Assembly (NCBI GenBank): GCA_903813345.2
Contig: CAIIXF020000005.1
Coordinates: 41,767,394-41,831,393, forward strand
Length of the DNA: 64,000 bases
DNA from: Owenia fusiformis
Taxonomy: Eukaryota; Annelida; Polychaeta; Sabellida; Oweniidae
Direction of reading: 5' to 3'
Shown: one piece after another, positions 1,287 to 63,577 of the stretch
Layout of the letters: every line of letters begins with the position of its first letter
Position numbering within the stretch: the stretch's first letter is position 1
Notes under the pieces: generated by a model
Database searches by the model: none
What the model was told of the DNA's origin: nothing
The model's input: only the letters and a program-made list of their open reading frames with translations
Made by a program: the position numbers and the translations under genes

Positions 1287-4200
1287 AATGACATTGGAGC
1301 AGAAGATCCACTTAGTATTGAGAATACACTATGGGCCAACACTGTAGTTGCATCTGGTACTGCCTTGGGTCTAGTGATATACACTGGCACAGAAACAAGG
1401 AGTGTTATGAATACATCTCAACCAGGAAGTAAGGTAAATATAATACACTATGGGCCAACACTGTAGTTGCATCTGGCACTGCCTTAGGTCTAGTGATATA
1501 CACTGGCACAGAAACAAGGAGTGTTATGAATACATCTCAACCAGGAAGTAAGGTAAATATAATACACTATGGGCCAACACTGTAGTTGCATCTGGCACTG
1601 CCTTAGCACGGTGTATAACCCAAACGCTCCTACATGCACGACGGAGCGTTTCATTACTGAAAGTAAACAAAGAAACGCTCCGGATTAGGAAAACTGGCTG
1701 GCGGGAATGATGAGCCATCTGACGATTTCCCCAATAATGGGAATAAGAGGCATGAGTTCCATATTTCGAGTATACCATTCGATGGGTGTGATATTCATGT
1801 TGTACTTGGCTGGCTGTTGACGGTTGAAGCAATTAGGAAGAGCTGTACGAAGCAGTATAGTTATCAAAATTCGAAAACGTATTTGTCATTCTACCGGTCA
1901 AAACCCCTTTTGTCGATACATGTGATTAGTTGAGCCAAGATTAGAGCACCAACGTATATTTTAGTCAAATTCCAATGCTTCAACGCACCATACATTATCG
2001 TAATAGTGATTTGATGACCGAAAATCCAGTCTTAAAAATGATGACATTCTCATATTCAAGAAACGCTCCGATCTGGTTAACACAGTGAACTGGAAACGCT
2101 CCGGTAGTCTAGATCAATTTAGGAAATATATAGCTTGCCTTTCCCTTTCAGGAAGCGAAAAAAAGATCTATTATACCCCTTGGCATCAAAAGAAGAAAGA
2201 TTAATTCACATATAAATTTTAGTTTTTTTCTATAGTTTTATGATTTAGCACACATGTAGGCATGACATCATCTAATGTAGGCTTAAATCAGCTAGTTGCA
2301 AGTTTAGCACCACCAGGTTCAGATGTTTCAATTTGCCTAACAAGTAAAACACGTTTTTGAGAGATAGATTCGATTCAGAACTCTTCTCTAATAATCTGAA
2401 AATGATATCAAAACAAAATGGTAAGAGCGTTTCTAAAATTGTGTTCTAAATCGACGGAGCGTTTTGAGGAAAACAAGCGATTTCTCGAGAACAAGTAATG
2501 GATTTGGACTGGGTTTTTAGGAAATGAGAATATACGAGTTTGTGATCTACTACTTTAACAGAAAGATTAACGTTTTCATAGAAATACTAGTTTGATTCGT
2601 AATTTGTGGTCAAATCGTCATCTTCAGATTCGTTCGATCTACACTACGGAGCTTTGATCAAGCAAATAACAGTTTACCACCAGAAGTTGAATAAATAAGA
2701 TCTTTCCTCACGGTATTGTTCATCGAATGGTACATAATATTTCACCATAACATATGATATGTAAGAGAAACGAGAGAAACAATACTTACGGTCATAGTGG
2801 AATCTTCATTAGCCGCCATTTTATTTCGCTCCGGAGCGTTTCCGCGTAAATGAAACGCTCCGTCGTGCATGTAGGAGCGTTTGGGTTATACACCGTGCTT
2901 AGGTCTAGTGATATACACTGGCACAGAAACAAGGAGTGTTATGAATACATCTCAACCAGGAAGTAAGGTAAAGATCCATTGAAGAGTTTAAAAGGCATAT
3001 CAGTGATCTCCCAAGGAGTTTTTCTAAACAAGGTGCAAAATCCAAGTTTTATCTGATCTTAATAGTTAAACCCTTTGATAGGGTACAAAGATATTTTCAG
3101 CAGGGTGGTGTATTATCATCTAATTTTCAAGATGGTGCAACCCCCAGTTGCTCTTATGTTGAAGTGATCACTGCATCTGTGCACAGATTTATAATGTTAC
3201 AGTCACAATAGTGGAAAGGAGAAATGAGGAAGTTGGCCCCTAATAACAACTATTTCCACATGAGTTTTTAGAAATCAAATTGTTGATTCAGCTTAATTCA
3301 GACACTATAACTTAAGATTTTAAATGGTTGAATAAATTGAAAATGCTGTACAACTGAAAATAAGAGGTAACTCTTTTATAAGAGGAAATATATTTGAAGA
3401 ATTTTTATTGTTTTGTACTAGGTGGGGCAGCTTGATTTGGAAATCAACACTCTGACAAAGATTCTGTTTTTTGCTGTGATATGTCTCTCCATCGTCATGA
3501 TGATTATAAAGGTATGTTATTGGATGACGTTTTCTTGATGATCATTAAATGATGCTGTGAGAATGATCATCTAAAAAGATTATCAATTTTAGAAAAAGAT
3601 AAAAACTAGGCTAAGTTGCACTATATAAACTATAATTGATAACCCATGAACGGACATCTACTATTTACCCATTGTACCCATACATAAACCGCTTCATTTC
3701 AGGGATTTGCTGGCCCGTGGTACCGCTATCTGTTCAGATTTATTCTTCTATTCTCTTACATCATTCCAATAAGGTAAGATCCATAAAATGACATATTTGT
3801 ATTCCCATTGGAATGATAAAGAAATAAAAATCATTTTGAATCATACTGACTGGGCAATAATCAAATTTTATTATACAGTGTTTAACTGGAAAAAATTATA
3901 TTGGATTGTATTTGCTGACTTTGGAAGCACAGTTAAGATGAACCATTTGGTATACCATTTTTTCAATTTGTAAATATTCAAAGAAAAGTATTGATCACTG
4001 AGCTGAGCTAATTATTCAGACTTACTATTTTGTTATTTTTCAGTTTGCGTGTAAATCTTGACATGGGTAAGGCAGCATACTCATACATGATCCAGAAGGA
4101 CAAAGAAATCCCAGGGACGGTTGTGAGAAGTACTACAATTCCAGAAGAGCTGGGTAGAGTTACTTACCTACTCTCAGATAAAACTGGTACTCTAACACAG

Positions 4201-7200
4201 AATGAAATGGTATGCTTTTTGATTTTCTTAAAATTATATGTAATCAACATTACCTATGATAAAGACACCAAAGGTGTGTTTAGATTATCACTTTATAACA
4301 TGTTCCATAACATAAGAATGGGAAAATCATTTGAGGGTCAATTCAGGTGCTTTTGGTACCATAGATCTTAGATAACATCTTCAAAGACAGGGTGATATTT
4401 CTTACTACTTTTTGTTTGTTTTTCCTCTAGGTATTCAAACGTTTACATTTGGGCACAGTGTCATTCACAAATGAGTCAATGGATGAAGTTGTTGCTCATT
4501 TGAAGACTTCTTTTACATCACTCCAACAACAACAAGAGGCTGCTGGCCTCAACACACCCCTCAAGGTAAAACAAGAATTGTACATGTAAACATGCAATAT
4601 TGAGATAGTGATTCAAAATAGCATTGGCTCTGTACAGTTTCAAGTACAAGTTTACAAAACCATATTTCTTCATGTAGAACATACAACAAGATGCTTTAAT
4701 TATGCCATAATTTTTCTTTATGAAAATTAGTATGTACGGATCTGTTAAATCATTTTCGCCTCAAAATATATCACCTATATTGATTTCAAGGTGACAAAGG
4801 TTAGACGCACAGTAGTGACCCGTGTGTATGAGGCTGTTAAAGCTCTTGCGTTATGTCATAATGTTACCCCAGTGTATGAGGAAGAGGAAGGGGATGAGGA
4901 CGAGGAAGAAAATATTGACATTGAAGCTGACCAACATACGCAACAAAAAGTTGTTTATCAAGCCAGCAGCCCTGATGAGGTGAACATTATCATAAGATTT
5001 TAAAATACTTTTCAGTATTACATCAATAATCACTATTGAAATTACAAGAGCTTTATTTTACTGTACAAAATGCAGTAATTGTGGAGTGAAAATACACTGG
5101 AATCAGTTAAATTTTTCATTTGCTGATAAATATTCAATATACATCTTTTGTACCTTATATAGCATAGATTCACCGTGTATTGTTTGTATTCCATTAGTGT
5201 TGATGTGAATTTAAAAATGTTAAAAATTGACACGAACCAACTCTAAAACTTCCAAGTTAGTAAGTAATGAATGCTCTTTATTGTTATCCAGGTGGCTCTA
5301 GTAAAGTGGACAGAAAGTGTTGGTTTGGGTTTAACTAAGAGAGATCTCAACTCAATAACTCTCATGTCTCCTCTTGGTCGACTTGTATCATACACCATAC
5401 TACAGATCTTTCCCTTCACTTCAGAGACCAAGAGAATGGGAATTATAATCAAGGTAAGAGTTCTAGTGTAATTAAATTGAAACAAATTCCTATAAAGGTG
5501 CCTATAAAGTTACGGAAAAAGAAGGCTATGACGTTATGAATATTGTAAACTTTGGAAATCCCACAAAATCCCGTAAATCTACGATTTTTTTGAGAAATGC
5601 ACAATCTCTGGTAGTTTGAGAAAGAACAATAGACTTACCCACCTGTAACTTTACGGAGTTTGGAGAAATAGACCCCAGGTCTGTAAGTACTGTACCTGTA
5701 GGTTCAGATTTGCAATGTTAATGGATTCTCAAAGTTTTGCTCAACTTCATTTCATCTTTAAATTTTCATGCTTTTCTCTAAGATACTTCAGTATTCAATA
5801 ATCAGATGGCAGTGTATTAAAAACGAATGCCATTATATTAATTGCACAAACTAGAGCCATGTGGGTTTAGGAAGTGACATTTTTATTACAGTCTGATTAG
5901 CTCATCTAGCCATGACATACCACATATAGTTTATCAGTTCAATTTAGATCCCTGAATAGTTGATGAGGTTAGATGCAATACTCCAAATGTACTCTTATTT
6001 ATTAGTTTAACCAGGGGTTAGGTGGTTTCCTATAAAGCTGACTTCCTTCAATCCATTGACGACCATATCTGTCAGTAAATTTTCTCAGTCCTTCTTTCTG
6101 CAGGTCTGTACATTTTCCTTTGAAACGAAAGTCATGCCATTTTATCTCATTCTTTATCATTCCAGTTCCCTTTATATCTACACAGTCCAAATGACTTTCA
6201 CATCTGAAAATATATTTAACATTTAGATGCAAATATTTCTTTGAATAGTATAGTACGCGCGGGAATGAATAAATATGAAATGAGACAGATACTGAAAATA
6301 AATGATTTAATAAAAGTTGCTCCCAATGTCTGATATTGATTGTTCAATAAAATTAATTACCTTTGAAAGTCACGAATGCACACTGTTTTCAACAGTTACT
6401 GTTCCTATATGACCAGGAGAATTGATAAAGTGATATTGACATTTGACATGTTGCTTGGCTCTAGATTAAGCAGCCGACGCAAATACTAAATTTGACTAAA
6501 TTATATTTTCTGCATTCCCATTATTTTATTCATTAGCAAGAATTCTTAGTGGAGCTCAGCCATTTGATATTTAATTTTCAAATTCACTCGATGGTATCTG
6601 CTTTACTGTACTTACCCAACTTCATAAGTGTTGCAGGCACGTCCTTCTTTTAAAGCACAGCGATCACAACAGTCACACCAGACTCCCATCTTAGGCTCAC
6701 AGTGGCTCTTCAACTCTTCCAGAGGTTCACATTCTTCCAGATCTTCATTCTCGCATGGTGCACATGTGAGAGCATTACTGAGGTTGAACGCAAGGCAAAA
6801 CAGAAAAATTGCACTCCCTAATGTCTGTTTGAGCATTTTGAATCTTGTCTAGTTGATCTTTTACACTTCGTTCTCATATAGTATGAATTCCTGCATCAAC
6901 GTTTCCTTACTGAATGACCCTAGAGCTAATGATCCGTGTCTTTTAAGATCCTGGTATTCATTTCCTGATATTCACTTGGATTTTGATATAAATTGGTTTT
7001 AACACAGTGACATTTATGGATAGCTATTTGCTACTATTAAAGTGATAATTGTAAATTAAGAAGACCGTTTCATAATTAATCATCACAATTACATAATTAA
7101 TCACAATCACATTATAATCTAAATCACTTGCTAAATGCTACCAGGATATTTGCCTTAATTACAAGTTTTGAACTTGCTTGTCCGTTCCAAGTTTAGTTAC

Positions 7201-48889: not shown

Positions 48890-50650
48890 ACTGCAATGCC
48901 ATTGTATTGATAATTTGAATTAGTGGTGAGAACAACATTCACATGCGAAGCCATTGTGTTGCTCATTTGAATTAGTGGTGGGAACAACATTCACATGCAA
49001 AGCCATTGTGTTGCTCATTTGAATTAGTGGTGGGAACAACATCCACATGCAAAGCCATTGTATTGCTCATTTGAATTAGTGGTGAGAACAACATTCACAC
49101 GCGAAGCCATTGTATTGCTCATATGAATTAGTGATGAGAACAACATTCACATGCGAAGCCATTGTATTGCTCATTTGAATTAGTGGTGGGAACAACATTC
49201 ACATGCAAAACCATTGTATTGCTCGTTTGGATTTGTGGTGGGAACAACATTCACATGCAAAGCCATTGTATTGCCCATTTGAATTAGTGGTGGGAACAAC
49301 ATTCACATGCAATGCCATTGTATTGCTCATTTGGATTAGTGGTGGGAACAACATTCACATGCAAAGCCATTGTATTGCCCATTTGAATTAGTGGTGGGAA
49401 CAACATTCACATGCAAAACCATTGTATTGCTCATTTGGATTTGTGGTGGGAACAACATTCACATGCAAAGCCATTGTATTGCCCATTTGGATTTGTGGTG
49501 GGAACAACATTCACATGCAAAGCCATTGTATTGCCCATTTGGATTTGTGGTGGGAACAACTTTCACATGCAAAGCCATTGTATTGCTCATTTGGATTTGT
49601 GGTGGGAACAACTTTCACATGCAAAGCCATTGTATTGCCCATTTGAATTAGTGGTGGGAACAACATTCACATGCAATGCCATTGTATTGCTCATTTGGAT
49701 TAGTGGTGGGAACAACTTTCACATGCAATGCCATTGTATTGCTCATTTGGATTAGTGGTGGGAACAACATTCACATGCAAAGCCATTGTATTGCCCATTT
49801 GAATTAGTGGTGGGAACAACTTTCACATGCAAAGCCATTGTATTGCCCATTTGAATTTGTGGTGGGAACAACATTCACATGCAAAGCCATTGTATTGCCC
49901 ATTTGAATTAGTGGTGGGAACAACATTCACATGCAATGCCATTGTATTGCCCATTTGAATTAGTGGTGGGAACAACTTTCACATGCAATGCCATTGTATT
50001 GCTCATTTGGATTAGTGGTGGGAACAACATTCACATGCAATGCCATAGTATTGCTCATTTGGATTAGTGGTGGGAACAACATTCACATGCAAAGCCATTG
50101 TATTGCCCATTTGAATTAGTGGTGGGAACAACATTCACATGCAATGCCATTGTATTGCCCATTTGAATTAGTGGTTTGGAACAACATTCACATGCAATGC
50201 CATTGTATTGCTCATTTGGATTAGTGGTGGGAACAACATTCACATGCAAAGCCATTGTATTGCCCATTTGAATTAGTGGTGGGAACAACATTCACATGCA
50301 AAGCCATTGTATTGCCCATTTGAATTAGTGGTGGGAACAACATTCACATGCAATGCCATAGTATTGCTCATTTGGATTAGTGGTGGGAACAACATTCACA
50401 TGCAATGCCATAGTATTGCTCATTTGGATTAGTGGTGGGAACAACATTCACATGTAATGCCATAGTATTGCTCATTTGAATTAGTGGTGGGAACAACATT
50501 CACATGCAATGCCATAGTATTGCTCATTTGGATTAGTGGTGGGAACAACATTCACATGCAATGCCATAGTATTGCTCATTTGAATTAGTGGTGGGAACAA
50601 CTTTCACATGCAATGCCATTGTATTGCTCATTTGAATTAGTGGTCGTGGG
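48890..50650 (+). repeat. 52-bp minisatellite, ~34 copies
   Basis: Unit ATTCACATGCAAAGCCATTG TATTGCTCATTTGAATTAGT GGTGGGAACAAC (52 bp), with AAAGCC/AATGCC and GAATTA/GGATTT alternating variants. ORFs of 60-114 codons on both strands are repeat artefacts. Confidence 0.95.
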
Positions 50651-50948
50651 AAGAAAATTCACATGGATTCCACCCTTCCACCCTTGACACACATGCACTA
50701 ACAATCAAGAGGTCAAACCAATATTTATGAAGATGTATTTGTGAGTTTATTTAATGTATTTAGACATAGACTTCCATAAACCATTATTATTCCACAAGAT
50801 AATTTTATCCCATAAAAGGTTTTGTACAAACTGGAATGGTCAAATGATCCGCTCCTTAGCATGTGATGCTCTATTTCATCATATTTTGATAAAGCCATAT
50901 ATGCACTAATTATTACATCCATATCTATATATATCTGATAACAATTCT

Positions 50949-50998: not shown

Positions 50999-53726
50999 AT
51001 GAAGTTATTACTGGTTTTAGCAGCTGTTGTAGGGCTCTCGGAGGCATTCTTATGGAAGAAAAGTAAGTTGTACTAGTAAGATTCTTAAATACAAAGTCTG
51101 ACGTTGGATGCATTGTACGGTACGATAGAGAACAAATAACTTTGAAATTGAAGAGCAGTATTTAAGATTTTTTGAAAAGTTGGTTTTATGGTTTTGATTT
51201 GATTTTAAGCTTATTTATAATGTAAAAATAGACCTATTTTCAATTTTAATTTTCATTTGGGCAGTCTGCATCTTTATCTTAGACAGAAATCCTTAATTTC
51301 TTATCACATTTAGTGTCATTACTACATGTATTACTTATTCTTGCTAGCAAAACCTATCGGTTACTAGATATTTTTTAATTGTTTAATTGTTTTTCTTGTT
51401 GCAGGTCCAGAGTGGGATGAGCTGAAAGGTATATCTTATCATTTGATTTCAAAAATTGTAAAGTACTATAGCATACGGACATAGTGTATATGATATCATT
51501 TTGTTCGATTGCATACACAAAGATATAGTCGACAATAACATTTTCTCCTCTTTCTCATACAGTGAAGTTTGGTGTTCCATTTAGTGATTTCAATTCCCAG
51601 CCCAGGACCGTAAAGGAAGCTGAGCAGCAAGGGTGGACGGCTGTTGGCACATGCGCAGGTATGTTTTCTTATATGGTGTATGATATAAATGCGCCCAAAC
51701 CTTCTAAGGAGATAACTTGCGAGCGGACGAGACGGATATATTTTGTATCTGTCCACGATGGTCACGATCTTCGGGCTCCAAGAGAAATAGAAAATTGGAA
51801 CTATGGTAAAAGCCATGTGTTTTATACTAGTGATATAGCGTGACACAACTTCAGGCTATGTTTTTCAAACTTGCAGCCAGCAATGGATACATGGGAAGAC
51901 GTTATGTGAAGGATGGCAACAGTGCCGTCATGCTGTTGTTTGACAAGAATGGCTTCATTGCTGGTATACAAGCTGGGGTGAGTATCACCACAAAAGCCAA
52001 AGGGGTAACCTTAACAAATGTTGACAATAACTTAGTCATTCAGCATGGGTATATTTGACACAATTAAAACCTTGTACGGTGGACAACTTCGCTTCAAGAG
52101 AGAACTTAACCAATACCGAATGGCTGATTGAGTTATAAACATTTACTTGGGTTACCTTTTTTGACTTGCCTTGTATCTTTTGAGAAACCAAGGCAAACGA
52201 GTGCGAAGGCAATGGTAGACGAAGATTTATTAACATTTTTGGATTAACTTCATTCCATGAAAATCCTGATCTGATTGTTTTGGGCATGTCAGCTTTTTGG
52301 TCCGATGATCCACCAAGCTAGTGGCACTTAAAATCATACTCACACGTTTCAAATGGAAACATATATTGTTGGCAAAATGAATTAAAACCGATTAATGTAG
52401 ATAATACGTCATGAAATGTAAATTACTGTGGCTTCTATTAAAGGTACCAAAAGGTCTCACCAATGGATTCCCCTACCCTGCAACCCGCCACATGTTCAAC
52501 ACCAAAGGATCCGAGAATGTCATCACTGCTTACTTCACAAATCCAGGTATTCAAAAAGTAGAATAGATAGAATGTTTGTTAGTGATCTACTAGTAAGCTG
52601 TAAAGTAATGCAATTAATATGCATATCGCACGTATGTCAGCCAATCAGCTTAGAGTGTGTCAATGTATCATCTCAAGATATATGGTCAACAGAGCAAAAT
52701 AATTATTTCTCGATCAGTGCATTGTGGTTTCATTATGAACTGAGAAGTGTCATTTTATAAAGGGGTGATCACTTGTTGAATTGTAATAAAGAACTTTGTT
52801 TCCCATTGCCATTTTGTGAAACACCAAATTGAGAAATGCACTATAAGTGCTGTATGACTCTAGGAGGGATGGGGGAGTACAATATCAATTCATTTCTCCA
52901 TAAGCATTTATTGAATCGAATCTATTTCTTACTCAGCAACTATCTGCAGCCAAGGAAGGTCGAGCAGTCAGTTTGATACTGAAGGTACAGGTACTGGAAT
53001 GTTCGTCCAGAATGGTCCTAACCCACTCACTAACTTTATCTCAGTCCCTATGACAGAAACTGGAATTGCGAAGACAAAGTGGACCAAAGGAAAATGCTTC
53101 GTTGGAATGGGTAAGTATAGAAATAAAAAGTTAATGTACTCATTAAACACGTTTGTCTGATTTTGGTTCGTAAATCTTAAGTCATTTTGAATATTTTGAT
53201 GAAAAAGTGCAATATTTATCACTCATCCCTTCGTCTGCAAAACTTCAAGAGAACCGCTCAATGTAATTTTATAAGTTTTAAGTTGAATGTATTATTGATT
53301 TTAAAGTACCTTGTTATTTTTAGGCCAGCACTATTGGTACAACACCTCTGAAAATATGAACTGTGAAAACTTCTTCCCAATGTTCCTTCTCTACACTGAT
53401 GGCAAATTGAAAGGCTTTGGTTGGGCCCTTGATGCTGATCTCACTTCAGAAACATGGGAACATCCACCACCTGCACTCTTCTCAGTAAGTACAGGGTCAT
53501 GATTGGGTATGCTATTTCTTGGGCCGGATTACTGAGAGTATATAAGAAGATTGTAAGATAAAATAAATTGTGACCGGCTGTCATTTCTTGATCATTGTTC
53601 TTAATTGAAGTCACCAAATATGACATGTATTTTGTCTCAGTTAATATTAATCTTATGATCGCCCCATTGCAGCTCTTCATGGACCCTGTACTAGAGGTGT
53701 CAAGTATTAACCGGTTAACCGGTTAA
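50999..53726 (+). CDS. Secreted protein of unknown family, paralogue 1, C-terminally truncated by a hAT element
   Basis: Exons 50999-51062, 51405-51428 (a 24-nt microexon), 51563-51658, 51877-51977, 52444-52546, 52937-53110, 53324-53484 and 53673 onward. A signal peptide MKLLLVLAAVVGLSEAF opens the protein. Exon 4 encodes YMGRRYVKDGN...LLFDKNGFIAGIQ; exon 7 encodes HYWYNTSENMNCENFFPMF and a FGWALDAD motif. In exon 8 a hAT element inserts six codons in; the frame enters it and stops at TAA 53724-53726, giving 258 residues. The displaced original end, reading KCL...STLHVYFSNPYANLC and TAG at 54348-54350, lies beyond the element. The truncation removes two of six cysteines conserved in paralogue 2. 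Function is unknown; I do not recognise the family. Whether the gene is still used is open. Confidence 0.85.
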
Positions 53727-54262
53727 CCGCCGATAATGCCTTGACCGGTCTGAGTTTTTATCGACGGTTAGTTGACCGTGTATAATTCTGTTATTTCCCG
53801 CGCTTATTTTGCATGCTAATCCGTTTGGTTCACGTAAGCTACTCATACATGTCATAAGTCCCATAACTCCTTACAAACATCCAATCAGCAACTTTAATCC
53901 CTGCCACATTGCTTTCCCGCGCTTACTTTGCATTTTAATCTGTTTGTTTTTCAAGCGTCAGTTTCATGTGAGCTACTCATACATGTGATAGGTCCGATAA
54001 TTCCTTACAAACATCCAATCAGCAACTTTAATCCCTGCCACATTGCTTTCCCGCGCTTACTTACATAGAATAGCGTAAAGCTTGACGAACGTAAAAAATA
54101 AACGCCGATATATCATTTTTCCAATTTTTTTCAACTTTCAAGATCGAAGATGAAGATTTCATTTGAAATAATAAGTTCAAATTTCCCGCCGGTTAACCGA
54201 CTTTAACCGGTAAAAACCCCCGGTTAACCGGTTAATGCTCAAGCGGTTAATTGACACCACTA
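53692..54262. mobile_element. hAT non-autonomous element in a coding exon (571 bp)
   Basis: Ends TAGAGGTGTCAA and TTGACACCACTA are inverted with one mismatch. A perfect 8-bp target duplication CCCTGTAC is at 53684-53691 and 54263-54270, diagnostic of hAT. Subterminal AACCGGTTAACCGG words are mirrored at the other end (CCGGTTAACCGGTTAA). Inside are two ~100-bp direct repeats (CTTACAAACATCCAATCAGC, TTTCCCGCGCTTACTT). No transposase is present. Confidence 0.93.
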
Positions 54263-54350
54263 CCCTGTACCAAAATGTCTGGAGAACAGGCCAAACAGGC
54301 TCTCTACCCTGCACGTATATTTCTCCAACCCATATGCCAACCTCTGTTAG
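54263..54350 (+). pseudogene. Displaced C-terminal coding end of paralogue 1
   Basis: Past the hAT element and its target duplication, the sequence reads on as the remaining codons of the terminal exon (motif LSTLHVYFSNPYANLC, TAG at 54348-54350), matching the end of paralogue 2 (LSTLHVYMSNPYSNFC). AATAAA signals follow at 54434-54439 and 54441-54446. Confidence 0.85.
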
Positions 54351-54859
54351 GAATGAACCAACATAACAGACACATCTTCGATAAATGGAATGGAATATGA
54401 GATTTTGAATTATTTTAGTCATATTATTCTAGAAATAAACAATAAAAACGTCATTTTTTATTTAGCTTGGCATTTACGTGTGTGCCGCTGTAATTCCCCT
54501 ATTAATTGGCCTTGCTTGGATGATTGGTTATCCGTTTGTTAATTGTTTCCTCTCCAACTTTGGCATAACAGTTCAAGAAGGTCAAAATTGAAAACTATTT
54601 TGGAAATTGTTATCACGAAAAAGATGTCTTCAATTTTTCTTCATTGAAACAGGACAAAGAAATTTCAAAAATTGCCCCATAGTAAATTTTCAGAGAGTAC
54701 CTTTTGACCAACCTTGTTACGGGCAGAACTCCTCAATGTTGTTATATCCTTATATCTGACACTTTCCCTTTCTAATGGTATATTCGAATATGCAAACCAA
54801 GGCATTAAGCATCATTCCTTAAGGTTAATTTACTCAACTATATTAGGGAATACTTCACA

Positions 54860-55949
54860 TTTCTGCGTGATGGAAGTAATCCAGAAATCATTCATTTATT
54901 GAGATAATGGCAAAAGGATTCTGCATATGGAAGTAATCCAGAAATGATTCACTTATTGAGACAATGGCAAAAGGATTCTGCATGGAGGTAATCCAGAAAT
55001 GATTCACTTATTAGATAATGGCAAAGGGATTCTGTATATGGAAGTAATCCAGAAATGATTCACTTATTGAGACAATGGCAAAAGGATTCTGCATGTGGAA
55101 GTAATCCATAAATGATTCACTTATTGAGATAATGGCAAAGGGATTCTGTATATGGAAGGAATCCAGAAATGATTCACATATTGAGATAATGGCAAAAGGA
55201 TTCTGCATATGGAAGTAATCCAGAAATGATTCACTAATTGAGACAATGGCAAAAGGATTCTGCATATGGAAGTAATCCAGAAATGATTCACTTATTGAGA
55301 TAATGGCAAAGGGATTCTGTATATGGAAGGAATCCAGAAATGATTCACTTATTGAGACAATGGCAAAAGGATTCTGCATATGGAAGTAATTCAGAAATGA
55401 TTCACTTATTAGATAATGGCAAAGGGATTCTGTATATGGAAGGAATCCAGAAATGATTCACATATTGAGATAATGGCAAAAGGATTCTGCATATGGAAGT
55501 AATCCAGAAATGATTCACTTATTGAGACAATAGCAAAAGGATTCTGCATGTGGAGGTAATCCAGAAATGATTCACTTATTGAGATAATGGCAAAGGGATT
55601 GTGCATATGGAAGTAATCCAGAAATGATTCACATATTGAGATAATGGCAAAAGGATTCTGCATAAGGAAGTAATCCAGAAATGATTCACTGAATGAGATC
55701 ACTCAATGAAATGACTCACTTACTTGATAATAGCAAAGGGATTCTGTATATGGAGGTGATCCAGAAATGACTCACTTACTTGATAATGGCAAAGTGATTG
55801 TGTATATGGAGGTAATCCAGAAATAACTCACTTATTAGATAATGCCAAAGAGATTCTGTATATTGAGGTAATCCAGAAATAACTCACTTACTTGATAATG
55901 GCAAAGGGATTCTGTATATGGAGGTAATCCAGAAATAACTCACTTATTA
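54860..55949 (+). repeat. ~56-bp minisatellite, first block (~20 copies)
   Basis: Unit GGAGGTAATCCAGAAATGAC TCACTTATTAGATAATGGCA AAGGGATTCTGCATAT (56 bp) with GAAG/GAGG and GACT/GATT variants. The minus-strand ORFs with QNPFAIISISESFLDYFHM periodicity are artefacts. Confidence 0.95.
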
Positions 55950-57140: not shown

Positions 57141-58420
57141 CATACTACATATATGGAGGTAATCTAGAAATGACTCACTAACTGAGATAATGGCAAAAGG
57201 ATTCTGCATGGAGGTAATCCAGAATTGACTCACTTATTAGATAATGGCAAAGGGATTCTGCATATGGAGGTAATCCATAAATTTCTCACTTATTAGATAA
57301 TGGCAAAGGGATTCTGCATATGGAGGTAATCCAGAAATGATTCCCTTATTGAGATAATGGCAAAAGGATCCTGCATGGAGGTAATCCAGAAATGACTCAC
57401 TTATTAGATAATGGCAAAGGGATTCTGCATATGGAGGTAATCCAGAAATGATTCACTTATTAGATAATGGCAAAGGGATTCTGTATATGGAGGTAATCCA
57501 GAAATGACTCACTTACTTGATAATGGCAAAGGGATTCTGTATATGGAGGTAATCCAGAAATGACTCACTTACTTGATAATGGCAAAGGGATTCTGCATAT
57601 GGAGGTAATCCAGAAATAACTCACTTATTAGATAATGGCAAAGGGATTCTGTATATGGAGGTAATCCAGAAATAACTCACTTACTTGATAATGGCAAAGG
57701 GATTCTGCATATGGAGGTAATCCAGAAATAACTCACTTATAATGTCAAAAGGATTCTGCATATGGAGGTAATCTAGAAATGACTCACTTACTTGATAATG
57801 GCAAAGGGATTCTGCATATGGAGGTAATCCAGAAATGATTCACTTATTAGATAATGGCAAAGGGATTCTGTATATGGAGGTAATCCAGAAATGACTCACT
57901 TACTTGATAATGGCAAAGGGATAGTGTATATGGAGGTAATCCAGAAATGACTCACTTACTTGATAATGGCAAAGGGATTCTGCATATGGAGGTAATCCAG
58001 AAATGACTCACTTACTTGATAATGGCAAAGGGATTATGCATATGGAGGTAATTCAGAAATGATTCACTTATTAGATAATGGCAAAGGGAGTCTGCATATG
58101 GAGGTAATCCAGAAATGACTCACTTACTTGATAATGGCAAAGGGATTCTGTATATGGAGGTGATCCAGAAATGACTCACTAATTAGATAAGGGCAAAGGG
58201 ATTCTGTATCTGGAGGTAATCCAGAAATTATTCACTTATTAGATAAGGGCAAAGCGATTCTGCATATGGAGGTAATCCAGAAATGATTCACTTATTAGAT
58301 AATGGCAAAGCGATTCTGCATATGGAGGTGATCCAGAAATGACTCACTTATTAGATAAGGGCAAAGGGATTCTGTATCTGGAGGTAATCCAGAAATTATT
58401 CACTTATTAGATAATGGCAA
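57141..58420 (+). repeat. ~56-bp minisatellite, second block (~23 copies)
   Basis: Same unit as the block at 54860-55949. GGAGGTAATCC variants dominate here, while GGAAGTAATCC dominates in the first block. Confidence 0.95.
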
Positions 58421-58745
58421 AAAAATCGGGCCAAGCCTCTCTGCTATTATTCCCCCTAAAACCCAGTACTCTTGGTTTATCAATAACATATGTGGTTTGT
58501 GTAGTCTATATATGTGTGTACATGAGTCTCACATGTGATACTACATCTTATTCCATAAATGTGCTCTCACATTCGCTGCAAGATCGTACACTTCGTGCTG
58601 TTGTAGTATAATGTCAGCATACATTGTGTGACCCTTTGAGCCATTGGAATGTTAATAAAGAGATACTGCTGGTTTATTTTCAAGTAGTTGTGAACTTTTG
58701 GATTCATGGGTGATAGTCCATTCGGATGTCACTAATCTCAGGTTG

Positions 58746-58846: not shown

Positions 58847-61800
58847 ATGAAGATTCTACTGATTTTGGCTGTGGTAGGACTTTCTGAGGGGTTCTTTTTT
58901 GGAAAACGTAAGTACAGGAATATAAGCAAACAACAGCATCAATTTGAAGTCAAACCCATTGATACAGTATCTTTAATATTATGATCATTTATCTTATAGT
59001 TTTGGGAATTAAATGTTTTGGATTCAAAAGTCGCGTATTGCTTTTTGGGTCACCGTTTAAAACGTAATGAGAAAGGTCAATACTTTTAGCACCTATTTTA
59101 ATTTGAAATATTCCATTCAAAATCTCAATAATACTGAATCCAGTTCCTATATTGTTTTGGAGTTCTTGTATAGTACAGTTCCGAGTGGTAATGTTTCTTA
59201 TATTATGTATCTGTATGGTATTATGTCAAAATCTGCTAAACTAAAATAGGTGTCACAAAACGTCACACAGCTTTCAACGGCAAATGCCTTGGATGATATA
59301 CAAGGTGTCAATAAAGGCTCTTTACACTTTACTCAGACTTGTATTGTAATTGTAAAGAGACATGGACACCCTGTATAAATGCCAAATTTAGAATTATAGA
59401 TGGAAGTATAAAGTAAGTAATATAACTATATATTCCCACAACTAAATTATTTTACTTTTTCTTGCAGGTCCCGACTGGGGAGATTTAAGAGGTTTGTATA
59501 TTGTAGTATAACAAAATGTAATATAAAATAACTTAAGATATATAATCGTAACATGAATAGGAGAGTAGGATAGAAAATAGGAGAGTTTCAGCAAATTTAG
59601 GAAACTCCTTCCTTCAAATCGATTGTTGCATATAAAATCAATTTTTCATTTTTTCTTCACAATTTGGAAAATTCATTAATTTGTATTAACATATAAGTCT
59701 TTTGATTTTTGAAGTTTTGGAAATCTACTTGCACCAGTTATAAGACACGATATGTAGGTAACCTCAATTCGGGCTAAATATTCTGGTTTGAATTGAATTG
59801 ACTTTACATAGGCTAGTCTTAAGAAACCATTTCGTCATTCCAAATTATACTTAAACTTTTTTCCAGTAAGGTTTGGCACACCAATTAGTGATTTCCGGAC
59901 TCAACCAAGAACTGTACAAGAAGCTAGGGCCCAGGGGTTTACACCCGTGGGAGGTTGTTCAGGTAAATAATCTCCTATTTTAGGTTAATGCCGAAAAGCC
60001 GAATCACTGTGGATATGGTGTACTAGGTTTGGCTGCACAGCAGTGAATTAACCATGGAGATGTCAAAATACTGTGGTTACATAACTCATTTTGTTGCACA
60101 TTTCTCGTTATTCGTGTTTTAAAGGGTTTGTAGAGATCTGAAATAAAGTACATTATATTCAGATGTAAGATAATCAAATTGTCTCACTGTCATTTATATC
60201 ATTATTATATGTTGTAATTCTCTGAGGGGGTCATACTGTGTACCATCATACTGTGTTATTCTCAGATTATGACTCTTATCTGTTTTTGTTTTTCTGAAAT
60301 GTACTTACTAACTTTTTGTAACTTTCTTCGTAGATGAATCAAGTTTCATAACTTGTTTATGATGTCAGATTGACCATAATTGTAGTCCAAAATGTTGTTA
60401 TTGCAAAAGTTATGATTAATGAATCTTGCACTACAATTCTAAGTTCTTTGTGGTCTTATCTTAAACCTTTAAGCAATACTCCGTGCAAAGTACACAGTAC
60501 AATGAACTTTGATATTTTATTAATTTATTTATTTACTTAATTGTTATTTATTTATTTATGTAGTTCACCTTTAAAATAGTGTCATTCGGATAGCAGTCCA
60601 GTGTAGTAATTAGACAAGTAATATAATTTAGTATGCGTCAAATGATGAAACACATACAATAGATTTTCATTCACTTTGTATATTTTGTTTCGCACTGATA
60701 TTCTAATGTCTGCACTCGATCATCTCTCTATTACAAGAATCTCCATTATGAAAACAGCATATAAAGAATAACATTTGCTCCTTCATGAAACGTTACAGCC
60801 AGCAATGGGTACATGGGCACACGATATGTGAAGAATGGCAACACTGCTGTCATGCTGTTGTTTGACAAGAATGGCTTCATTGCTGGTATACAAGCTGGGG
60901 TGAGTATAAGACTGATACAAGTACATCAAAAACGAACCATTGACATGAACCATCGATCTCTCTTAACATTACCTTGAAATGAACCATTGACCTCTCTTAA
61001 TCATTGACCTTTCTTGACATTACTTTGAATTGAACCATTGACCTATCTTGACTTTGCCTTGAAATGAACCATTGACCTTTCTTGGCATTGCCTTGAAATG
61101 AACCATTGACCTCTCTTGACATTGCCTTGAAATGAACCTTTGGCCTATCTTGACATTGCCTTGAAATGAACCATTGACCTCTCTTGACATTGCCTTGAAA
61201 TGAACCTTTGGCCTATCTTGACATTGCCTTGAAATGAACCATTGATTTCTATCTGCATTTATAAACATTGCGCATGCCTTGAAATGAACCATTGACCTTT
61301 CTTAAAATTGTAAATTATAAAAGATCTTTCTTGGTATTGCCTTGAAATTAACCAAATTGGTTTTGCTTGATATTGTCTCGATATCTGATATTGGCCTTGT
61401 TTGATGAATTGATATGTAGCCTTCGTTTCCTACCCTGCACATGGTACTTAATGGTAATTATGTCAAAATCCTTTTGTTGGGACAATTAAAAATATTTCAG
61501 GGTCTCGTTCTCCTTTTAAGCTACCAAAGAACCTTCCTAACGGATATCCAGACAGAAGTAGCCACCGCGACCTGTTCATCAGCGAAGGATCTAAATATGT
61601 GATAACCGCTTACTTTACAAATCCAGGTACTACTGACGTTTGCATTTTTGAAAAGAATATAACAGTTGCTTTTTGAGATTCACATATGCAATTGTGAACT
61701 ATTCAATTATGTTCGGGAATGCATGGCTTTGGTCATAAGTCCACCAAATCAGATATAATCCCTATAAACCATACACATTCAACATATTTTCACTATTTTC

Positions 61801-63577
61801 AGAGAAAATCTGCAGCGAAGGAAGGTCAAGCAATCAGTTTGACACCGAAGGTACAGGAAATGGACTATTTATCCAAAGTGGTGCTAACCCAGTCAGAGAT
61901 TTCATCACAATTCCTATGACAGAATCAGCGATAGCTAGAACCAAATGGACCAAAGGGAAATGTTTCTATTGGATGGGTGAGTGTATTGAAGGGAACATAT
62001 TAATTATTAAGGATCTAAGTAATTAATGATTGACATATGCAACAAACACATAATTGAAAATCCAACAAGACGTAGACATGATAATAAGGACCTACTTCTC
62101 TCATCATCCATGTGATCATATCATTACATATTTCACATGAGATCATGGTTTCCCTTATACCTTGTTACAATTTTCTAGTTGTGACTATAATATGCTTAGT
62201 TCTCTGATATGATGGCCTATTCTGTGTTCTGATTGGGAAGGAAGTAACAATGTTTGCCCAGATATATGTGAATAATGGGATTAAGCATCGGTTTGGATGG
62301 TGTAACAATATGAATTAAATGCTACATTTTCATCTTGCTTTTACATTTTACAGGTCGTCATTACTGGTACGATGTTACATCGAACATGGATTGCAAAGAC
62401 TTCTTCCCAATGTTTCTGCTCTACAACAGTGGCAAACTAGATGGCTTTGGCTGGGCCTTTGGTGCTGATCTTAGTGAGGAAGTATGGGAGCATCCATCGG
62501 CATCTACCTTCAACGTGAGTATATATGTATACAATACGAACTCAAATACCACTTAGTGCCTGTGCACAATTTGTACTCACGGTTTGTGCTCAATACGTGC
62601 ATATACAGTATACACAATATGTACTCAATGTGTGTATGTACACTACGTTCTCGATAACACACTATGGAGTCAATAATTAAAGTATATTTACACACTATGT
62701 ACTCAATAATTAAGTCAGTCTAAACAGTATTACTCAATAAATGTATGTACACTCTATGTACTCATCACATACTCAACAGATGTGTATATAAGTGTATTTA
62801 CACATATCCCTTATATGAAACACTGAAAACGCTGACTCTGAATTTGGATTATTGAGATAAATTACAGAATATTGACATAATATGAGGATGCACTACAATC
62901 CCAAAGACTGAATCTTATCACTGTTGGACTGTCACGTCCAGTTTTTTTCAAAATGGTGCAAAAAGTTCACCTTTTTGTCGCTGCGTGCCACGGTGTGTCA
63001 CTCAAATAAGTGTACTCATTCATAATTAAGTTATAAACTATTACAACTATAACTATAAACTATAATCCCAAGTTTTGTCACAATTACAGTTAAGGTACAT
63101 ATTAACTGATCAGGTTCGATCCCATATCCGTTTATAAGTCTTTTACAAAGGCCGTAATCGTTGGGCTCGGTGAACTCGTGATAGACCTTGAAACCAATCC
63201 GTTTTTATGCCCAGTCATTTTGCACTAAACACATATCTTTATCTTTACCAGATAACCTAAGATAAGTTATACCAATAGCATTGATGAATGTGATAAGGCT
63301 ATAAACGAACTTGATGACCCTATACAATAAGATGAAACATTTGACTCATTTTTATGACCTTTTCAATTCATTTATTTATCATAATTGATGCACATAACTT
63401 TTGTCTTTTTGTTCTGGAAATATACCATTTTTTCCATTAACATCATATATATAACTTTGATTTACTTTGCAGTTAGGGTTATTCATTGATCCTGTTCCTA
63501 GATGTCTCGTCAGCACCACCACCAGGCTCTCCACCCTCCATGTGTACATGTCCAACCCATACTCCAACTTCTGCTAG
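58847..63577 (+). CDS. Secreted protein of unknown family, paralogue 2 (intact, 275 aa)
   Basis: Eight exons: 58847-58907, 59468-59491 (24 nt), 59867-59962, 60799-60899, 61521-61626, 61803-61976, 62354-62514 and 63473-63577. They sum to 828 nt with intron phases 1,1,1,0,1,1,0, identical to paralogue 1. A signal peptide MKILLILAVVGLSEGF opens the protein. Six cysteines remain in the mature part (GGCS, KICS, KCF, MDCKD, RCL, final NFC), consistent with three disulfides. Exon 4 (YMGTRYVKNGN...LLFDKNGFIAG) differs from paralogue 1 at 3 of 34 residues and is the most conserved part; exon 5 is the least conserved and one codon longer. Conserved aromatic motifs are HYWYD, DFFPMFLLY and GFGWAFGADL. 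There is no membrane segment beyond the signal. I do not recognise the family. Confidence 0.88.
60940..61300. repeat. ~33-bp tandem repeat in intron 4 of paralogue 2
   Basis: Unit GAAATGAACCATTGACCTCT CTTGACATTGCCTT, about nine copies with variants. It is absent from the matching intron of paralogue 1. Confidence 0.85.

Follow-up and report, generated by a model that had tools for sequence, protein, structure and literature searches.

Non-autonomous hAT elements, including the hAT-derived MITEs, are delimited by 8-bp target-site duplications and short terminal inverted repeats, encode no transposase, have ends in common with a transposase-bearing hAT element and exist as many nearly identical copies. 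In rice, activity is reported for the hAT system nDart1/aDart1, in which short elements are moved by an autonomous relative and give rise to gene-altering insertions (PMC4585910). Disruption of a gene by a transposon is likewise illustrated by the r15 allele of the pink bollworm cadherin, where the insertion was found through resistance (PMC6522560).

Here, we analyzed a 64,000-nucleotide stretch of the genome of the polychaete Owenia fusiformis (hereinafter, the window), in which an element with all of these features of hAT-derived MITEs interrupts the first gene (gene 1) in a tandem array of three. It is very probable, in our assessment, that a non-autonomous hAT element recently inserted into the last coding exon of this gene and produced a loss-of-function or truncation allele. 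The element is a short hAT of the same type as those of the nDart1/aDart1 system, although activity, reported in rice, is in our case deduced from sequence features. Similarly, r15 and gene 1 both involve a mobile element within a gene that changes the product, but in the former case resistance led to the insertion, whereas the insertion in gene 1 is known from the sequence alone. Most likely, the event in gene 1 represents an ordinary recent truncation allele of a familiar kind, and it leaves the general picture unchanged. Nevertheless, given that selection usually removes transposon insertions from coding exons, a fresh insertion that left the cut-off tail intact, next to two intact paralogues, amounts to a clean natural experiment.

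The element is 571 bp long (positions 53692-54262 of the window, forward strand) and is flanked by the duplication CCCTGTAC, located at 53684-53691 on the left and at 54263-54270 on the right and perfect at all 8 bases, which leaves the exact point of insertion ambiguous. Its terminal inverted repeats (53692-53706 and 54248-54262) are 87% complementary across the 15-bp ends. The longest stop-free stretch within the element spans 70 codons, so that it has no coding capacity, and, compared with the family consensus of 585 bp, it contains a 15-bp deletion private to this copy. An AATAAA hexamer inside the element (54097-54102, forward strand) could act as an early polyadenylation signal; further copies of this motif start at 54434 and 54441.

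A DNA search of the genome with the element yielded matches in all 40 scored cases (the best 40 of 326 candidates), one of which is the window copy, and the first 23 bases of the element occur in the genome in 251 exact copies, as opposed to 0 for the reversed control. We read 20 other copies drawn from the 39 other best matches listed. The 8-bp duplication is perfect in 19 of these 20, the exception being L010 (6/8), and the duplications of the 19 copies differ from each other as well as from that at the window site. Because nearly all copies thus have their own distinct duplication, a chance repeat at the window site is excluded. The 20 copies deviate from the consensus by 0-1.37% of substitutions, although the apparent youth of the family is biased upward because the copies read were the best matches. 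The target sites of hAT elements are biased toward nTnnnnAn. Among 20 of the 21 sites (L010 dropped), T is found at position 2 in 12 and A at position 7 in 13; the window site has C at position 2 and A at position 7, so that the bias holds as a tendency. Taken with its high copy number and homogeneity, the short, non-coding element belongs with the MITEs, and the 8-bp duplication, the short terminal inverted repeats and ends in common with a hAT transposase element place it among the hATs.

The element with the transposase is 3179 bp long (C10:18960654-18963832; L029), is flanked by its own duplication, GTATGTGG, and carries between its ends a zf-BED domain (E 1.7e-9) and a Dimer_Tnp_hAT domain (E 2.7e-22). 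Its ends are nearly the same as those of the MITE consensus, with identities of 98.2% over 386 bp and 97.5% over 198 bp, so that the attribution of the window element to hAT in the first-pass annotation is borne out by both homology and ends. The transposase gene, possibly intact, has three stop-free stretches in one frame, and the intervening stop-containing stretches may be introns. Candidate hAT dimerisation domains were matched in 138 of the 150 scored cases (the best 150 of 183), and MITE ends surround the transposase at 1 of the 11 hAT loci read, namely, L029. Two other loci, L022 and L023, with a hAT domain in the vicinity of a MITE end, were rejected as partners because they contain MITE copies next to other hAT genes. 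The remaining eight have neither an end pair nor long similarity to the MITE and were rejected as well; four of them contain only scattered single 12-base matches, with at most 2 mismatches. The inner 2301 bases of L029 have at least one full-length match, L029 itself, the others being partial (best 40 of 67 candidates), which makes L029 the only full-length candidate source among the matches listed. However, at about 2%, the divergence of L029 from the MITE consensus exceeds that of every copy read, which makes it a close relative of the MITE but not its direct parent. The window element itself is most likely related, by internal deletion, to a hAT element with a transposase that resides elsewhere in the genome. 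Nothing distinctive sets this family apart from the described hAT-derived MITEs; what is notable is that one full-length transposase-region match was seen among the best 40 of 67 candidates, which, together with the 251 exact 5′ ends, renders testable the proposition that one gene drives the family.

Gene 1 comprises eight exons within positions 50999-54350 of the forward strand. Exons 1-7 (50999-51062, 51405-51428, 51563-51658, 51877-51977, 52444-52546, 52937-53110 and 53324-53484) are homologous to those of genes 2 and 3, and the introns have GT-AG borders, with a continuous frame open to the end of exon 7. The portion of exon 8 located 5′ of the element (53673-53691) encodes LFMDPV plus one base, after which the element, with boundaries at 53692 and 54262, splits a proline codon behind its first base (GTA C/CA). 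The frame continues within the element (53692-53726) for 11 codons, the first of which, CTA, takes its initial base from the end of the left duplication (53691), adding the residues LEVSSINRLTG before the new stop, TAA, at 53724-53726. The cut-off remainder of exon 8 (54271-54350), consisting of CA, KCLENRPNRLSTLHVYFSNPYANLC and the TAG stop at 54348-54350, remains open in the correct phase, so that 26 C-terminal residues of gene 1 are lost and yet readable 3′ of the element. These coordinates uphold most of what had been noted on first inspection: the position of the element with its duplications, intact and well-spliced upstream exons, and a frame running 11 codons past the conserved part. 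The claim that the element lies exactly between codons contiguous in the paralogue needs two small corrections: the proline codon is split, and the junction is uninterrupted in two paralogues rather than one.

The conceptual product of gene 1 with its new end is a 258-residue precursor that retains four cysteines outside the signal region, the other two being carried by the cut-off tail. Given that the new stop falls in the last exon, a truncated secreted protein is predicted as the plain reading of the sequence, with the label "secreted" for this family suggested by the look of the N-terminus. We propose that transcripts of gene 1 would run into the element, that the early stop, being located in the last exon, would evade splice-junction-dependent decay, and that a real gene product would be cut short, yielding the precursor without two cysteines and without the conserved tail. 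Such a protein probably would be misfolded or deprived of the ancestral function, with genes 2 and 3 presumably staying intact beside the truncated gene.

Gene 2, an intact tandem paralogue recognized by homology to gene 1 (58847-63577, forward strand), has eight exons and encodes 275 amino acids, and gene 3 (locus L001; 69229-72257 when the numbering is extended past the window), also intact, encodes 271 residues with the same eight-exon plan. Whole-genome searches with each of the three proteins hit three places only, all on contig C5, and produced no fourth paralogue. The tails of genes 2 and 3 are of the same kind as the cut-off tail of gene 1, and each of the two proteins contains six cysteines outside the signal region, a count that agrees with the earlier statement that two of six conserved cysteines are lost. 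No Pfam match was obtained for the gene 1 protein, and none over the cut-off for the three paralogues; the weak, below-cut-off matches of gene 2 to DUF4367 (E 0.021) and Gp45_2 (E 0.036) were set aside. A sequence search of the PDB for this family detected no match to a solved structure, and a pattern search of prokaryote genomes for relatives returned 107 stretches that fit the pattern, with 0 confirmed. Thus, the three genes appear to encode a secreted six-cysteine protein without a recognised family.

Comparison of genes 1 and 2 gives dN 0.215 and dS 1.18 (dN/dS 0.18) for the 246 codons before the insertion site, and dN 0.219 and dS 1.12 (dN/dS 0.20) for the 25 codons of the cut-off tail, so that the tail of gene 1 looks as constrained as the rest of the gene. 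For the tails of genes 1 and 3, dN is 0.34 and dS 1.86 (dN/dS about 0.18), whereas those of genes 2 and 3 (dN 0.57, dS 1.15; dN/dS about 0.5) are looser than gene 1 compared with either, the tail comparisons among the three genes being uneven, as a tail this short (25 codons) permits.

Two local features of the tandem genes deserve mention in their own right. Genes 1 and 2, which are about 72% identical in their coding sequences overall, share an identical run of 59 bp (window 51927-51985; gene 2 exon 4, 60799-60899) that takes in the 3′ end of exon 4, continues 8 bases into its intron and resembles a short gene-conversion tract. In gene 3, the splice donor of exon 6 sits in a tandem array of four 34-bp units (L001 7148-7269), one with a base change and every one also containing the acceptor-like TTTTTCAG.

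The window copy of the element differs from the family consensus by 3 substitutions in 570 positions (0.53%; Poisson 95% range 0.11-1.54%), and the sequence across its 15-bp deletion occurs only once in the assembly. This low divergence, along with the private deletion, indicates that the insertion is young, in keeping with the initial suspicion of a young allele. That the tail is intact adds little to the case for youth because, with 0.53% divergence, no more than about 0.4 changes would be expected across 78 bases. Perhaps, the allele is still segregating. We also considered a broader scenario, in which one or very few transposase genes continue to mobilize the hAT family, and gene 1 represents a natural presence/absence polymorphism, with the truncated form segregating alongside a full-length allele; this is a tentative proposition that we regard as rather less than an even bet. 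No second haplotype of the locus was seen among the best 40 of 184 candidates, in which the upstream sequence of gene 1 matches itself (100%) and otherwise paralogues and dispersed repeats; however, because second haplotypes are often purged during assembly, a single haplotype in this one says nothing on the population.

The reading of a truncated gene 1 product could be escaped if inexact or non-canonical splicing took the element out of the transcript, leaving most of the tail in a protein of nearly full length. Exact GT-AG removal of the element with one duplication is impossible because the sole possible GT start ends with CT. The donors scanned were that of exon 7, six others as far as the new stop and that of exon 6 (the last with none open); 7 of the 149 enumerated donor-acceptor pairings hold the frame to the original stop, the one result that speaks for rescue. 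All 7, however, leave out the more N-terminal of the tail cysteines, and their acceptors score from -5.2 to -8.7, below every one of the seven natural acceptors of gene 1 (0.4 to 9.7), on a generic matrix. Such rescue is therefore quite improbable.

Equally hard to sustain is the notion that, with 11 new residues at its end, the truncated protein has been retained in the tandem family as a functional variant. In favor of this notion, exons 1-7 are fully open, and the mRNA should be stable with an early stop that falls in the last exon. Yet, at 0.53% divergence, the 741 coding bases upstream would be expected to have accumulated no more than about 3.9 neutral changes, so that the openness of these exons is uninformative on selection after the insertion, and the tail that was lost is conserved between the paralogues and holds two of the six conserved cysteines. 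Finally, an assembly artefact, with a repeat misjoined into gene 1, is conceivable for a repetitive element but scarcely credible, given that a perfect duplication, complete ends, and private substitutions and a private deletion are not expected of a misjoin.

Truncation of gene 1 by a recent hAT insertion remains the preferred reading, and the window contains several other features of a repetitive nature. Long minisatellite arrays with 52-57 bp units (48892-50665, 54861-55946 and 57151-58421) flank gene 1 and precede gene 2. Farther upstream, a 119-bp unit that includes an exon-like stretch is repeated 2.4 times in tandem with 98% matches (1323-1606). Near this repeat, an open frame (4012-4371) contains DKTGTLT, which we take to be a P-type ATPase-like motif, so there may be a flippase-like gene with a partial internal duplication in this region.
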